Source: Actinoplanes palleronii
Lineage (GTDB): Bacteria > Actinomycetota > Actinomycetes > Mycobacteriales > Micromonosporaceae
Assembly (NCBI RefSeq): GCF_016862315.1
Contig: NZ_BOMS01000015.1
Coordinates: 1-64,000, forward strand
DNA: 64,000 nt
Direction: 5' to 3'
A model generated the notes under the pieces. That model did no database searches. It worked only from the letters and a program-made list of their open reading frames with translations, and was not told the origin of the DNA. Made by a program: the position numbers and the translations under genes. Shown here piece after piece: positions 13,094-63,534 of this stretch; the first letter of the stretch is position 1, and every line of letters starts with the position of its first letter.

Positions 13094-14074
13094 ATGAAAT
13101 CTTCCGTGCTCACCACCCTGGTCGCCCTCGCCGCCGTCCTCCCGGTCGCGGTGCCCGCCCACGCCGCGCCGCCCGCACCGGACGGCGGCCGGATCTCCCT
13201 CGCGGCGCTCCGGGAGGCCACCCTGGACGTGCCGGCCTGGCCCGCCGACAACGTCCAGGGCCCGTCCGGCCCGCTGCGCTTCCACCACGGCGAGGTGACG
13301 GTCGCGCCGAGGACCGTGCCGGACGGCCGCCCGCCCTACGGGCAGTCGATCGTGATCCTGTCGGTCAGCTACGGCGACATCGACCACGACGGCACCGACG
13401 AGACCCTCGTCGTGCTGGGCTGCCTGATCGAGGGCGGCAGCAAGCAGATCGTCGCCTACGACCGGGACGCCGACGGCCGCATCGTCTCCCGCGGGCAGGT
13501 CGCCGCGACCACCGGCGAGGTCCGCGACCTCAGCAACACCGGCGTCCGGGTCGACGGGTCCGGCGTGGTGACCGCGCGGGTCGCCGACTATCAGCGCTGC
13601 TGCGCCGACCGGACCCCGCAGAGCTGGCAGACCCGCGGGTACGCCCTGCGCGACGGCCGGTTCGCGCAGGTCAGCGGGCCGACCCGGATGCCGCTCAACC
13701 CACGGGTGACCGAGACCCGGCTCACCGCCGACGACCTGATCCTCGGCCGGCCGGTCGGCGGATTCCGGTCCGGCGGCGTCGACGTGACGGTCACCCACCA
13801 CCGGGGCGCCCATCCCGAGCGGGTCACCCTGACGTTCTACCCGCCGGAGGGTCTGGAGCGCTCCGGCAGGTGGCCCAGGGTGACCGGCGGAACGGACTCG
13901 TTCAGCGTGACGGTCGCCGCGCCCGCGGCGGGTGGCAGCGTCACCCACCGGTTCACGTTCCGGCTGCCGGTCGGGGTGTCCGCCGGCGAGCTGGCGATCG
14001 CGCTGGACACCGTGCCGCAGCTGAGCCCGGCGATCCCGTGGCAGGGCAGCGCCACCGCCCGGATCCTCGGGTAG
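13094..14074 (+). CDS. Secreted protein of unknown function
   Basis: 326 aa. A classical signal peptide (MKSSVLTTLVALAAVLPVAVPAHA) is followed by a mature region without transmembrane segments. The only recognisable motif is YGDIDHDGTDETLVVL (about residue 92), an Asp-rich Ca2+-binding loop of the type found in FG-GAP/lipoprotein-like beta repeats. The second half looks like an immunoglobulin-like beta domain. I do not recognise the family. It follows the kinase gene by 71 bases on the same strand and might share its transcript. The chosen ATG begins the signal peptide; upstream frame to 12929 overlaps the kinase gene. Confidence 0.72.
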   Translation: MKSSVLTTLVALAAVLPVAVPAHAAPPAPDGGRISLAALREATLDVPAWPADNVQGPSGPLRFHHGEVTVAPRTVPDGRPPYGQSIVILSVSYGDIDHDGTDETLVVLGCLIEGGSKQIVAYDRDADGRIVSRGQVAATTGEVRDLSNTGVRVDGSGVVTARVADYQRCCADRTPQSWQTRGYALRDGRFAQVSGPTRMPLNPRVTETRLTADDLILGRPVGGFRSGGVDVTVTHHRGAHPERVTLTFYPPEGLERSGRWPRVTGGTDSFSVTVAAPAAGGSVTHRFTFRLPVGVSAGELAIALDTVPQLSPAIPWQGSATARILG

Positions 14075-14210
14075 CCGCCCGGCCTGGTGGGCAGCCGCCC
14101 GGCCTGGTGGGCAGCCGCCCGGCCCGGTGGGCAGCCGCCCGGCCCGGTGGGCAGCCGCCCGGCCCGGTGGGCAGCCGCCCGGCCCGGTGGGTGGCCGCCC
14201 GGCCCGGGCG
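14071..14210. repeat. Seven tandem copies of a 20-bp unit
   Basis: The unit GCAGCCGCCCGGCCCGGTGG is repeated seven times in perfect 20-base register. Units 1 and 2 have GGCCTGG in place of GGCCCGG, and units 1 and 7 diverge at their edges. The first unit contains the TAG stop codon of the secreted protein. The array fills the spacer before the NCS1 permease. Confidence 0.93.
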
Positions 14211-14272
14211 GGTAGCCGAAGATATACATTTCCGCTCATCGCTGTGAAACACCTGGTTCTTAGCGTGTTCGC

Positions 14273-20824: not shown

Positions 20825-20896
20825 CCTTTTTCCGGTACGAGGGGCAGAGCTGCCCGGGCGGGTGACCGGGCGGCTTTCACCTCGTACCGGAAAAGG
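20825..20896. terminator. Long inverted repeat after rsgA
   Basis: CCTTTTTCCGGTACGAGG (20825-20842) pairs with CCTCGTACCGGAAAAGG (20880-20896), with one bulged T and a 37-base GC-rich loop that can itself fold. It begins directly after the rsgA stop codon and is likely the terminator, though its arm sequence is unusual. Confidence 0.6.
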
Positions 20897-20998
20897 GGTG
20901 AGAAGGACCTCAGCGGAAGCGTAAGCGCACCTCACACCGTGCCCCGCAGCTGCGCCGCGTTTGCCGGATGGTCAGGTGGCTCTGGCAGAATCCGCCCG

Positions 20999-25920: not shown

Positions 25921-26424
25921 GTGTTTCCTCCCGGTCTGCAGGGCTGCGTTGCGGAAACGGTCGGGACACCACGGTGAGTGCTCGCTGGCTGGGCTCGGCT
26001 GGTGCTGGCGGCCGTTATCGCGGGCGGGAAAGGGCCGTGAGGACCAGCCGGGGCGGCGCACTGTGCGCGGGCGTCTCCCCGGGGCTGTCCTGCGCGGGCG
26101 TCGGCCCGGGGCTGTCCTGCGTGGCCCGCTGCCCCGGCCGGATTGAGGGCGGGATGCGCCACTGCGGGAAATTTGATTTTAGAAATTTCTTAGGGGACTC
26201 ATAGACAGTCCGGCGGCTGGGTCTTTTAAGGTCGACCCCGGACGACAACGGTGCCGCAAGTGCGGCAAACAGGACGTCCGGATGTGTGCGAATCGGGGGA
26301 ATCCGCCGCGGCACAGCGCGGGTTAATCTCGCCGCACGCATGAACCGATCGTGGTGGCGCCCCCGTACTCAGGGGCGACTCCGCGTGAGATCAGACGTGG
26401 ACCAGGTACTTGGAGGGGCGACAC
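25921..26424. other. Spacer between uvrA and the Rieske gene
   Basis: About 500 bases with no convincing gene. It holds one solitary copy of the dispersed palindromic repeat (25997-26051). Two copies of a CCCGGGGCTGTCCTGCG block follow at about 26078 and 26106. There is also a short AT-rich island around 26167-26190 (GAAATTTGATTTTAGAAATT), unusual in this genome. The Rieske promoter is probably in the last 200 bases. Confidence 0.6.
25997..26051. repeat. Solitary copy of the dispersed palindromic repeat
   Basis: GGCTGGTGCTGGCGGCCGTTAT and, after a short centre, AAGGGCCGTGAGGACCAGCC form an imperfect palindrome. It closely matches the three copies at 46990-47170, 21 kb away. Confidence 0.75.
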
Positions 26425-45909: not shown

Positions 45910-46787
45910 TGCCCGCCGACGCCCGGGTCGCCCTGGTCACCTGCGACCTTTTCCCCGACCTGTGGGACGACGACCACCCGCTGCGCGACGCTCTCGTCGC
46001 GCGCGGGGTGGCCGTCGACGCGGTGAGCTGGGACGACACGGGCGCCGACTGGTCCCGCTACGACCTCACCGTGATCCGTTCGCCGTGGGACTACGTCGCC
46101 CGCCACGACCAGTTCGTGGCCTGGGCGCGCAGCGTGCCACGGCTGGCCAACCCGGCCGACATCATCGCCTGGAACACCGACAAGCGGTACCTCAGCGAAC
46201 TCGCCGCGGCCGGCGTCCCGATCATCCCGACCACGTTCGTCGGCCCCGGCGAGTCCTGGTCCGCGCCGGCGGACGGCGAGTGGGTGGTCAAGCCCACGGT
46301 CTCGGCCGGCAGCCAGGACACCGCCCGCTACGCCCTGCCCGGCCAGCGCGCGGAGGCCGAGGCGCACGTCAGCCGGCTCACCGCCGCCGGCCGGACCGCC
46401 ATGGTCCAGCCGTACCTGGCCGCCGTCGCCACCGCCGGCGAGACCGCCCTGCTGTGCCTGCCCGACGCGACCGGCGAGCTGACCTTCAGCCACGCGATCC
46501 GCAAGGGACCGATGCTGCTGCGCACCGGCGAGCACGAGATCAACCCGGGCAGCGAGGACATCACCCCACGCACCCCGTCCGCCGCCGAGCTGGAGATCGC
46601 CCGCCAGGCCCTGGCCGCGATCCCCGGCGGCTCCAAGCGCCTGCTCTACGCCCGGGTCGACGTCATCCCCGGCCCCGACGCCCGCCCCATGATGATCGAG
46701 CTGGAGCTCACCGAGCCGTCCCTCTTCCTCCGCGAAGCCCCCACCGCCGCCACCCGCCTGGCCGACGGCATCCTGGCCCGCCTCTAA
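45909..46787 (+). CDS. ATP-grasp (RimK-like) domain protein
   Basis: 292 aa. N-terminal pre-ATP-grasp segment (VALVTCDLFPDLWDDD...LTVIRSPWDY), then the ATP-grasp fold with WVVKPTVSAGSQDT for nucleotide binding and YARVDVIPG and MIELELTEPSLF near the metal site. The family ligates a carboxylate to an amine or thiol; proteins of this type occur in peptide, glutathione-like and RiPP pathways. With only a 97-aa unknown partner, no substrate can be given. A clear terminator follows. Confidence 0.85.
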   Translation: MPADARVALVTCDLFPDLWDDDHPLRDALVARGVAVDAVSWDDTGADWSRYDLTVIRSPWDYVARHDQFVAWARSVPRLANPADIIAWNTDKRYLSELAAAGVPIIPTTFVGPGESWSAPADGEWVVKPTVSAGSQDTARYALPGQRAEAEAHVSRLTAAGRTAMVQPYLAAVATAGETALLCLPDATGELTFSHAIRKGPMLLRTGEHEINPGSEDITPRTPSAAELEIARQALAAIPGGSKRLLYARVDVIPGPDARPMMIELELTEPSLFLREAPTAATRLADGILARL

Positions 46788-46803: not shown

Positions 46804-46841
46804 CGGACCGCGCCTCTTGGCGCGGTCCGTTTCTTTTTCTT
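46804..46841 (+). terminator. Intrinsic terminator after the ATP-grasp gene
   Basis: CGGACCGCGCC (46804-46814), loop TCTT, perfect complement GGCGCGGTCCG (46819-46829), then TTTCTTTTTCTT. Very strong Rho-independent terminator. Confidence 0.94.
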
Positions 46842-46989
46842 GTACGGGCACGGCCGCCCCCAACCGCAGCAGCCCGTCTCGTGGCGGCGCCCCGCGACAT
46901 CCGTCCACCCCGGACCGCCCAGCGCCTCCCGGATGTACCGGTGGTCCCGCTCACCCCACCAACCCAAGCACCTGCCCCGCCCACCACCC

Positions 46990-47170
46990 GGCTGGCCCCA
47001 ACGGCCCTTATAAGCGCCGGATTCGGGCCGTGGCGTCCAGCCGTGCGTGCCTGGCTGGCCCTGGCGGCCTTTATGGGTGCCGGATTCGGGCCGTGGCGTC
47101 CAGCCGCGTGGGCCCGGCTGGCCCTGGCGGCCCTTATGAGGGTCGGAAAAGGGCCGTGAGGGCCAGCTGG
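46990..47170. repeat. Three palindromic repeats with exact 63-bp period
   Basis: Each copy starts GGCTGGCCC, at 46990, 47053 and 47116. Each has GGCTGGCCCTGGCGGCCCTT as left arm, a centre near TATGAGGGTCGGA, and AAGGGCCGTGAGGGCCAGC or a variant as right arm, so each can fold into an imperfect hairpin of about 20 bp. Compensating differences between arms are visible in the copies. A fourth, solitary copy is at 25997. Confidence 0.9.
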
Positions 47171-47424
47171 GCCGTGACGCGCGTTGCGGCGCGGTCCGGA
47201 GCGGGAACGTCGCGGGCTCCACGGCGTACCCCGTGCAGGTGGAACGGGATCAGCGGTCTGGACCGGATCGTCTGCCCGGAGTGGGCACCCACCTCTGGGG
47301 ACGGCAGTGCCCGAACGCGACCGGTGACCGGCGTATCGGGCCGTGACCACCAGGTCCCTCGCCTGGGAAGCAACCCCCAGCGAGCCCGCAGCCGACCCCT
47401 CCCGCCCTGACCCGGTCCATCGTG

Positions 47425-47504
47425 GCCGCGAGTGAGGCAGGCCGCGAGTGAGGCAGGCCGCGAGTGAGGCAGGCCGCGAGTGAGGCAGGGCGTGAGTGGG
47501 GCAG
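47425..47504. repeat. 16-bp tandem repeat, five copies
   Basis: GCCGCGAGTGAGGCAG is repeated four times without change from 47425 to 47488, followed by a degenerate fifth copy (GGCGTGAGTGGGGCAG). It ends 29 bases before the ctaA stop. Confidence 0.92.
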
Positions 47505-47533
47505 GGCGCGGCGGCGACGCCGGGCCGGCGCGG

Positions 47534-48496
47534 TCAAGCGGCCGGAACGGGATCCTTCGACGGTGCCGGGGCCGGCGTCTGGCCGGCGGGCGTGGAGTCC
47601 GCCACCACCGGGCGTTCGCGCAAGGACCACAGGGCGCCGAGCGTCGCCCACCACACCAGGCCGGCGCCGAGCATGTGGGCGGCGACCAGGATCACCGGGA
47701 GGTGGGTGAAGTACTGGACGAAGCCGATCAGGCCCTGCGACAGCTCCACGATGACCAGCACCCCGGCGGCGCGGACGGCGGCCGCGGGGGCCGGGACCGC
47801 GCGGAGGGCGAACCACAGCGCCACCGACAGGCCGATCAGCAGGAAGACCAGGTCGGCGTGGACCTGGGAGATGGCGGCCGGGTCGAGGCCGTTGCGCTTG
47901 GCGCCGCGGTCGCCGGAGTGCGGGCCGCTGCCGGTCACCACCACGCCGACCGCGACGACCGCGAGGCTGGCCAGCGTGGTGAGCGCGCCGAGGGCACGGA
48001 GCGGAGCGGGCACCAGGAGGACCGGGGCGGCGTCACCCTCGTCGATCCGGCGCCAGAACGCGTAGGCCACCGTGATCAGCGCGATCGAGAGCAGGAAGTG
48101 CAGCCCGACGACCCACGGGTTGAGGTGGGTCAGCACGGTGATGCCGCCGATCACGCCCTGCATCGGGATGCCGAGGCCGACCGCGATCGACAGCCGGACC
48201 AGCGACCGGCGGCGGGGCCGGCCCATCGCGCCGAGGAAGCAGGCGATCGCGAGAGCCACGAGCACGAACGTGAGCATCCGGTTGCCGAACTCGATCACGC
48301 CGTGCACGCCCATCGCGGACGTCGTCGTATATGACCCGTCGGTGCACTTGGGCCACGTCGGGCAACCCAGACCGGAGTCGGTGAGCCGGACCGCGGCACC
48401 GGTGACGATCAGCGCGACGTTGGCGACCAGGGACGCGAGGGCCAGTGGACGCAGCACGGCGGTGAACGGGCGGAACAGCGGCTCGAAGGACTTCAC
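47534..48496 (-). CDS. ctaA: Heme A synthase (COX15/CtaA)
   Basis: 320 aa membrane enzyme that oxidises heme O to heme A for aa3 oxidase. About eight helices, with RLTDSGLGCPTWPKC, the heme-ligand segment VIEFGNRMLTF, HLNPWVVGLHFLLS and a later QVHADLVFL, typical of the family. A Pro/Ala-rich tail ends it. GTG 48496 (MKSFEPLFRP) is taken as start. Divergent from sufR. Confidence 0.93.
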   Translation of the reverse strand: MKSFEPLFRPFTAVLRPLALASLVANVALIVTGAAVRLTDSGLGCPTWPKCTDGSYTTTSAMGVHGVIEFGNRMLTFVLVALAIACFLGAMGRPRRRSLVRLSIAVGLGIPMQGVIGGITVLTHLNPWVVGLHFLLSIALITVAYAFWRRIDEGDAAPVLLVPAPLRALGALTTLASLAVVAVGVVVTGSGPHSGDRGAKRNGLDPAAISQVHADLVFLLIGLSVALWFALRAVPAPAAAVRAAGVLVIVELSQGLIGFVQYFTHLPVILVAAHMLGAGLVWWATLGALWSLRERPVVADSTPAGQTPAPAPSKDPVPAA

Positions 48497-63296: not shown

Positions 63297-63299
63297 AAC

Positions 63300-63520
63300 A
63301 TGCGTGTGAAGTTGGGGTGCGCACCGCACCGAAAGTCCCCACGCTGCAGCTGCTCAGGGCGTGCGTGTGGAGTTGGGGTGCGGTGCGCGCCGAAAGTCCC
63401 CACGCTGCGCCCAGCCCCACCGTGCGTGTGGAGTTGGGGTGCGGTGCGCGCCGAAAGTCCCCACGCTCGGTGTCACCACCGCTGGCGTGGGGGGTGGGTG
63501 CGGTGCGCGCCTCAGGTTCA
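63300..63520. repeat. Tandem repeat with 61-bp period, about four copies
   Basis: Units begin GCGTGTGGAGTTGGGGTGC at 63302 (slightly divergent), 63363, 63424, and a degenerate one near 63485. Each unit ends with CGAAAGTCCCCACGC, so the ends of a unit are partly complementary. No gene is seen in this 238-base spacer. Confidence 0.88.
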
Positions 63521-63534
63521 CGTGGGCGGGGGCT

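Follow-up and report, generated by a model that had tools for sequence, protein, structure and literature searches.

Palindromic repeats behind genes in Actinoplanes palleronii are probably cores of a genus-level family of non-autonomous mobile elements

The window analysed here, 64,000 nucleotides of contig C15 in the 11.17-Mb, 234-contig assembly of Actinoplanes palleronii, contains a convergent intergenic region in which three palindromic sequences lie side by side. An ATP-grasp gene (stop codon at 46787) is found to the left of this array, followed by what appears by eye to be an ordinary terminator at 46804–46839. To the right, on the opposite strand, lies a COX15/CtaA-like gene (47534–48496), so named from its sequence, with weak NCBIfam support below cut-off. 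A sequence-only reading of the window had reported these copies, at 46990, 47053 and 47116, together with a solitary one at 25997. All four exist, with 3, 1, 0 and 3 mismatches, respectively, to the 22-mer quoted for them (0 expected; 100 shuffles), and the 63-bp spacing of the first three was exact. Each was a palindrome-like unit of 53 bp, its 22-nt arms flanking a 9-nt centre, and together they were the sole matches in the window to a genus-wide model, R2 (E ≤ 0.1). RNA folding of the + strand was far better than that of shuffled sequences for the copies at 47116 (z = −6.36) and 25997 (z = −4.99), and little better for those at 46990 (z = −1.75) and 47053 (z = −0.98).

Other repeats were seen in the window. 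Just right of the array's element, in the same convergent intergenic region, about five copies of the 16-bp tandem repeat GGCCGCGAGTGAGGCA occupy 47408–47510. Four copies of an about 61-bp repeat (63299–63526), by eye unrelated to the cores, lie between the end of one gene and a convergent neighbour, and a 20-bp tandem repeat with seven register copies (14035–14227) overlaps the end of a called gene and continues behind it.

The sequence-only reading had placed the feature at 46990–47170; the array does lie there, and the feature extends outward, as the flanks on both sides matched the arms of a larger element (Table 1). Aligned with A. palleronii element arms, the left flank scored 82 and the right flank 49, each equalled by 1 of 300 random stretches of the same genome. 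The flanks of the 25997 copy gave no such match (129 and 78 of 300 random stretches scored as well). GTACG at 46842 and CGTACC at 47225–47230 are probably the ends of the window element, and its unequal flanks (149 versus 62 bp) indicate that it is decayed or rearranged.

Table 1 Palindromic features of the window
Feature	Position	Strand	Description
Core palindrome 1 of array	46990..47042	+	53 bp
Core palindrome 2	47053..47105	+	53 bp; folds poorly, decayed
Core palindrome 3	47116..47168	+	53 bp; best-preserved hairpin of the array
Larger element, left arm	46841..46989	+	GTACG end motif 46842–46846; inner CGGACCG 46911, GCGCCTCCCGG 46922
Larger element, right arm (shorter)	47169..47230	-	GGTCCGG 47193; end motif CGTACC 47225–47230
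Full element (inferred)	46841..47230	.	Three cores in about 390 bp; flanked by a convergent gene pair
Solitary core palindrome	25997..26049	+	Between uvrA and same-strand downstream gene; flanks unlike larger element

Across the genome, comparison of flanks revealed that A. palleronii cores are often enclosed by long inverted arms, the core usually being the apex of a larger element with ends GGTACGNATACGGAGCG...; the ends of full elements read GGTACG...CGTACC. The arm end GGTACGNATACGGAGCGNNCGNCCGNAGGCTAC matched A. palleronii 153 times at ≤3 mismatches (76 forward, 77 reverse) and none of 19 other Actinoplanes genomes (control, 0). In 18 of the 20 ends examined, the first core arm lay 102–106 nt inside the end (one lay at 157 nt and one end had none). 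The both-ended copies L358, L359, L360 and L373, of 249–263 bp, each folded as a single long hairpin at −182 to −246 kcal/mol; in four copies the + and − ends were paired at 247–261 bp. A. cyaneus has an end family of its own, with 9 matches there, 4 in genome G031 and 0 in the other 18 genomes, A. palleronii included. Ten +/− end pairs were listed; 47 of 57 ends were outside these or in overlapping views of one element, and many had no recognisable partner. One pair, 2,040 bp apart, has a called gene of 330 aa between its ends and probably represents two elements. We also observed a small palindrome, TTTTTCCGGTACGAGG...CCTCGTACCGGAAAAGG, at 20825–20900 of the window, right behind a stop codon and bounded by GGTACG/CGTACC as the large elements are.

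The core itself is a 53-bp palindrome with 22-bp arms and a 9-nt loop (22-9-22), often repeated every 62–64 bp, whose ends read RGCTGG/CCAGCY by eye in alignments. Two core families were distinguished in A. palleronii: the older has GGCC-TTAT arms and forms arrays, and the second has CAGGGGTG arms. On contig C120, a perfect second-family copy lies 63 bp from a decayed unit, which itself follows first-family units. Rfam 15 gave no match above gathering score at the elements in the window or in loci L148, L157, L349, L358, L207 and L306; the only Rfam match, an L31-Actinobacteria ribosomal protein leader (L148, 6340–6387), lies away from the element.

Searching the whole genome with the arm pattern (≤3 mismatches) gave 150 matches (77 forward, 73 reverse), compared with 3 (2 + 1) for the reversed pattern. 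Covariance model R1, built from 29 A. palleronii copies, gave 149 strand-wise matches at E ≤ 0.01, which is not a count of sites because palindromes often score on both strands and only the best 150 candidates were considered. Over the named genomes, a palindromic pattern found at least 76 stretches, and every listed match was in Actinoplanes (A. cyaneus, A. utahensis, A. liguriensis, A. flavus and A. lutulentus). R1 matched 15 of 60 genomes of the genus (A. palleronii included), and R2, among the best 38 candidates per genome, matched at least 11 of 150 family genomes, 7 inside the genus and 4, weakly, outside it. The sequence-only reading had weighed a dispersed family against a local duplication only; the 150 genome-wide arm matches and the presence in 15 of 60 genomes rule out the latter, and the palindromes belong to a family that is dispersed, mostly intergenic and numerous both in this genome and in its relatives. 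Many elements stand at A. palleronii contig ends (for example, C18, C44, C172 and C204), so these repeats probably broke the assembly, and the copy counts are low estimates. In G097, which belongs to a different genus of the family, we saw 53-bp palindromes of related appearance (L229 and L235), their ends reading ATCTGG...CCAGAT.

Relative to genes, placed with a home-made caller based on codon-position GC, 26 of 62 core clusters lay between convergent genes, 18 between tandem genes and 4 between divergent ones, with 1 inside a called gene; the other 13, mostly at contig ends, had no assigned gene context. The nearest upstream gene reads into 44 of 57 distinct ends; for 24 of these 44, the distance to the stop codon is no more than 18 nt, 10–11 nt being the commonest.

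A rival reading is that the copies are conserved host 3′-end structures (transcription-end, mRNA-end or DNA-binding) behind stop codons, homogenised within each genome by gene conversion or by co-evolution with a binding protein, with an arm register (31/32, 63, 84 and 105 bp) reflecting a protein along double-stranded DNA. We regard this reading as possible but doubtful. It is favoured by the enrichment of GTACG 5–19 nt behind stops at 1,046 gene ends of several species (54 observed against about 18.5 expected from positions 60–199), although this set partly consists of loci picked for bearing elements. Also in its favour, the gene ending at L157:3305 has GTACG 5–12 nt behind its stop in 5 of 5 relatives too. 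Against it, each end family is specific to a lineage, most relatives giving 0 matches, and an ordinary-looking terminator already follows the gene on the left of the window array.

Site occupancy in relatives bears on both this reading and that of a mobile element. The window site holds cores in 7 of 21 genomes (A. palleronii, G051, G047, G046, G010, G035 and A. cyaneus), and arm sequence and array size differ in each. The 20 genomes examined for this site were hand-picked, ten being the closest by COX15-type protein identity and ten others including some already known to be positive; G045, with a different 52-bp palindrome, and G044, with an unrelated 62-bp repeat, were counted as empty. That repeat of G044 is in tandem at the orthologous site (L219, 2090–2330), and in G025 the orthologous intergenic region has a perfect 22/22 palindrome of unrelated sequence (L216, 2374–2425). 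Other palindrome families may thus use the same sites as the window array. Sharing of the window site by seven species is odd for random insertion and counts against a mobile element.

Occupied and empty sites were also compared in relatives, as the sequence-only reading had proposed, at eight convergent sites occupied in A. palleronii, namely those of 18 convergent sites that had a hit in all five relatives used. A core was present in 2 of 40 site-by-species cases, both in G051, and 38 of 40 had no detectable core; for 21 of these 40 orthologous cases, the genes on both sides were recovered. Away from the window site, R2 gave few hits in the syntenic 72-kb blocks of ten species: one gene boundary in G051, one in G015, the A. 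palleronii 25997 copy and two in G058 beyond the block's mapped genes. The 2/40 occupancy, taken with the shared window site, indicates that most copies are lineage-specific and that a few sites are old, with lineage-specific sequence. That relatives are unoccupied at most sites speaks against fixed host structures.

Growth of the satellite type alone, with no mobile element but with replication slippage and template switching at terminator hairpins that were already present, would account for some of these observations, and template switching is known to perfect palindromes. Tandem arrays of identical units at one site, as in G051 at the window site, fit it, as do nested palindromes that share centres. 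It cannot, however, account for 33-bp ends that recur at many unrelated gene ends in one genome and nowhere in 19 relatives, and we consider it quite improbable.

Spacing within arrays was regular. In A. palleronii, the step from one core arm to the next alternated between 31 bp, seen for 97 of 116 +/− neighbours, and 32 bp, seen for 65 of 80 −/+ neighbours. Core-to-core spacing was 62–64 bp for 45 of 78 neighbours, in a set whose stretches partly overlap and in which identical neighbour pairs were counted once. The same spacing was found for 66 of 80 neighbours in G051, 7 of 7 in G035, 2 of 2 in G192, 4 of 5 in G027 and 2 of 2 in A. utahensis. Some A. palleronii cores (L140 and L144; five neighbour pairs) were spaced by 84 bp, again a multiple of 21. 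The 31/32-bp alternation holds although the spacer sequence varies, and 62–64 bp is the prevailing spacing in several species whose arm sequences differ; both points favour a host structure with a protein bound along it. On the other side, 62–64 bp is not dominant in A. cyaneus (6 of 21) or A. liguriensis (0 of 4), and in G010 the spacing is 105 bp in two instances. Arm distances and core spacings agree with multiples of the DNA helical repeat, and we hold helical phasing as a lead only, because tandem duplication likewise preserves spacing, which also weakens the register as an argument for host structures. We discounted the possibility that the 63-bp period, equal to 21 codons, is coding, as 62-bp units are mixed among the 63-bp ones.

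The sequence-only reading had also noted changes in both arms of the copies. These are present, but among 29 A. palleronii copies they are not compensatory (80.1% of cells paired versus 81.7% when shuffled), which leaves selection for hairpin pairing in this species unsupported and which, for the old family, would also suit the host-structure reading. Across the genus, the 22-9-22 shape is kept and arm sequence changes on both sides: 89.3% of cells were paired versus 75.9% in shuffles, and there were 87 double-change cells versus 34.9 (reached by 0 of 500 shuffles), in sets that lean towards pairing because they were chosen by a pairing-aware model (set A2; the rows of A1 were best arm matches) or, for A. 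cyaneus, by a palindromic pattern and a pairing filter (cores kept at ≥19 of 22 pairs). In A. cyaneus, 33 of 57 such filtered cores were perfect palindromes, and matched two-arm changes made up 17 of 48 differences between nearest neighbours. Coordinated two-arm changes accounted for 4 of 228 differences in the old family of A. palleronii and 5 of 98 in its second family. Among perfect A. cyaneus copies, all four combinations occurred at 5 of 10 tested site pairs, which suggests recombination or repeated coordinated change.

A more specific version of the mobile-element reading is a self-templating mobile palindrome, which would move or be copied as one long hairpin with arm templating arm. 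Its copies would be born near-perfect with their own coordinated changes and placed beside stop codons at GGTACG-bounded 3′-end hairpins, in helical register with older copies, and each Actinoplanes lineage would fill or overwrite such sites with sequence of its own. We think this specific version unlikely; if true, it would add to mobile DNA a class distinct from RAYT/REP.

The array had originally been read as a REP/BIME-type mobile hairpin, of the kind usually moved by a RAYT transposase. REPs are 20–40-bp palindromes with a GTAG or CGTC tag, found behind genes or between convergent genes, and GTAG types are tied to RAYTs, as described in PMC3733652 and PMC2817692. The resemblance in life style stood: like REP, BIME and REPIN sequences as those papers describe them, the Actinoplanes palindromes are dispersed, high in copy, mainly intergenic, located behind genes or between convergent genes, arranged in arrays and divided into species-specific families. 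Membership did not, since the Actinoplanes core is 53 bp, usually inside a palindrome of about 260 bp with GGTACG...CGTACC ends, and no GTAG (GTRG) or CGTC tag was seen by eye in alignments at core or full-element ends.

The RAYT link also failed. The A. palleronii Y1 transposase that we scanned is of IS200/IS605 type (113.9 bits, cut-off 55) and scored 22.1 bits against the RAYT model (cut-off 80). All five Y1 proteins scanned, this one and four from other genomes, were IS200-type, scoring at most 29.9 bits against RAYT model NF047646 (cut-off 80). A. palleronii has a second Y1 gene, split into two pieces where contig C147 begins; the scan covered the other one. No Y1 match was found in 7 of 15 element-positive genomes, among them the single-contig G051, G035, G015 and G046, and none in G192, G027, G058 and G014, which speaks against this mover; three complete single-contig genomes lacking Y1 carry 22 to 97 element matches. 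A. cyaneus, with the most perfect cores, has only two partial Y1 matches. On the other hand, Y1 genes were commoner in element-positive genomes (8 of 15) than in the others searched (2 of 11), which counts against a RAYT-free reading. The IS200-type scans and the Y1-less element-positive genomes largely refute RAYT as the mover, and true REP/BIME elements moved by RAYT seem to us very improbable here. The search brought up no other candidate mover.

Among REP-related repeats, PMC3733652 describes CGTC REPs as a family without a dedicated transposase and TIR families as flanking tyrosine transposase genes. The Actinoplanes elements resemble these in lacking a dedicated transposase and in having long inverted repeats, respectively, and are unlike the TIR families of that source in that no tyrosine transposase gene was found near an element end and several element-bearing genomes had no Y1 match. 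A word search did not find Actinobacteria in the text of PMC3733652 or PMC2817692, and a search of titles and abstracts, in a library of limited coverage, found no literature on such repeats in Actinoplanes.

Inverted terminal arms common to many copies (the 153 end matches and four +/− paired copies), lineage-specific amplification, many copies and no coding capacity are features shared with MITEs. Unlike MITEs, the whole Actinoplanes element is a single palindrome, its structured centre being 53 bp long and its ends tied to stop codons. No target-site duplication was recognised by eye in element flanks. GTAC as a duplicated target was set aside: among 1,017 intergenic GTACs of the examined loci there were 7 weak palindromic empty sites, none convincing. 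No autonomous copy or transposase with the same ends was seen in the examined loci, where the one pair of ends about 2 kb apart spans a called gene.

ERIC/YPAL-type palindromes are intergenic, exceed 100 bp and have no known transposase of their own, and the Actinoplanes elements are alike in this. They differ in belonging to another phylum, in being larger, in their in-register internal arrays and in the fast species-specific turnover of their centres. Long palindromes are generally held to be unstable in SbcCD cells. We found an SbcD homologue in 26 of 26 genomes searched; this excludes loss of SbcD as the cause of palindrome tolerance, and the tolerance of long palindromes is not explained in that way.

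We conclude, with a probability of roughly 0.6, that the copies in the window are cores of a genus-level Actinoplanes family of non-autonomous palindromic mobile elements, REP/MITE-like but not REP members. Anatomy, copy number, lineage-specific end families, position and in-register arrays are the observations from which this starts. In A. palleronii a typical full copy is an inverted repeat of about 260 bp just behind stop codons, favouring convergent pairs, with a central 53-bp hairpin, and extra cores added in tandem at about 63 bp give arrays such as that of the window. Copies may spread by transposition or transposition-like copying, in lineage-specific bursts, with an activity supplied in trans acting on the hairpin or cruciform form. 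Copies would be near-perfect palindromes when young and would later decay through uncompensated changes, and the elements may be mainly selfish and tolerated at gene 3′ ends.

Such a family would give Actinobacteria a RAYT-free system of dispersed palindromes, with nearly perfect inverted repeats of up to about 260 bp in genomes that have kept SbcD. Its lineage-specific gene-end families across one genus would make the birth, spread, in-register growth and decay of palindromes comparable between species.
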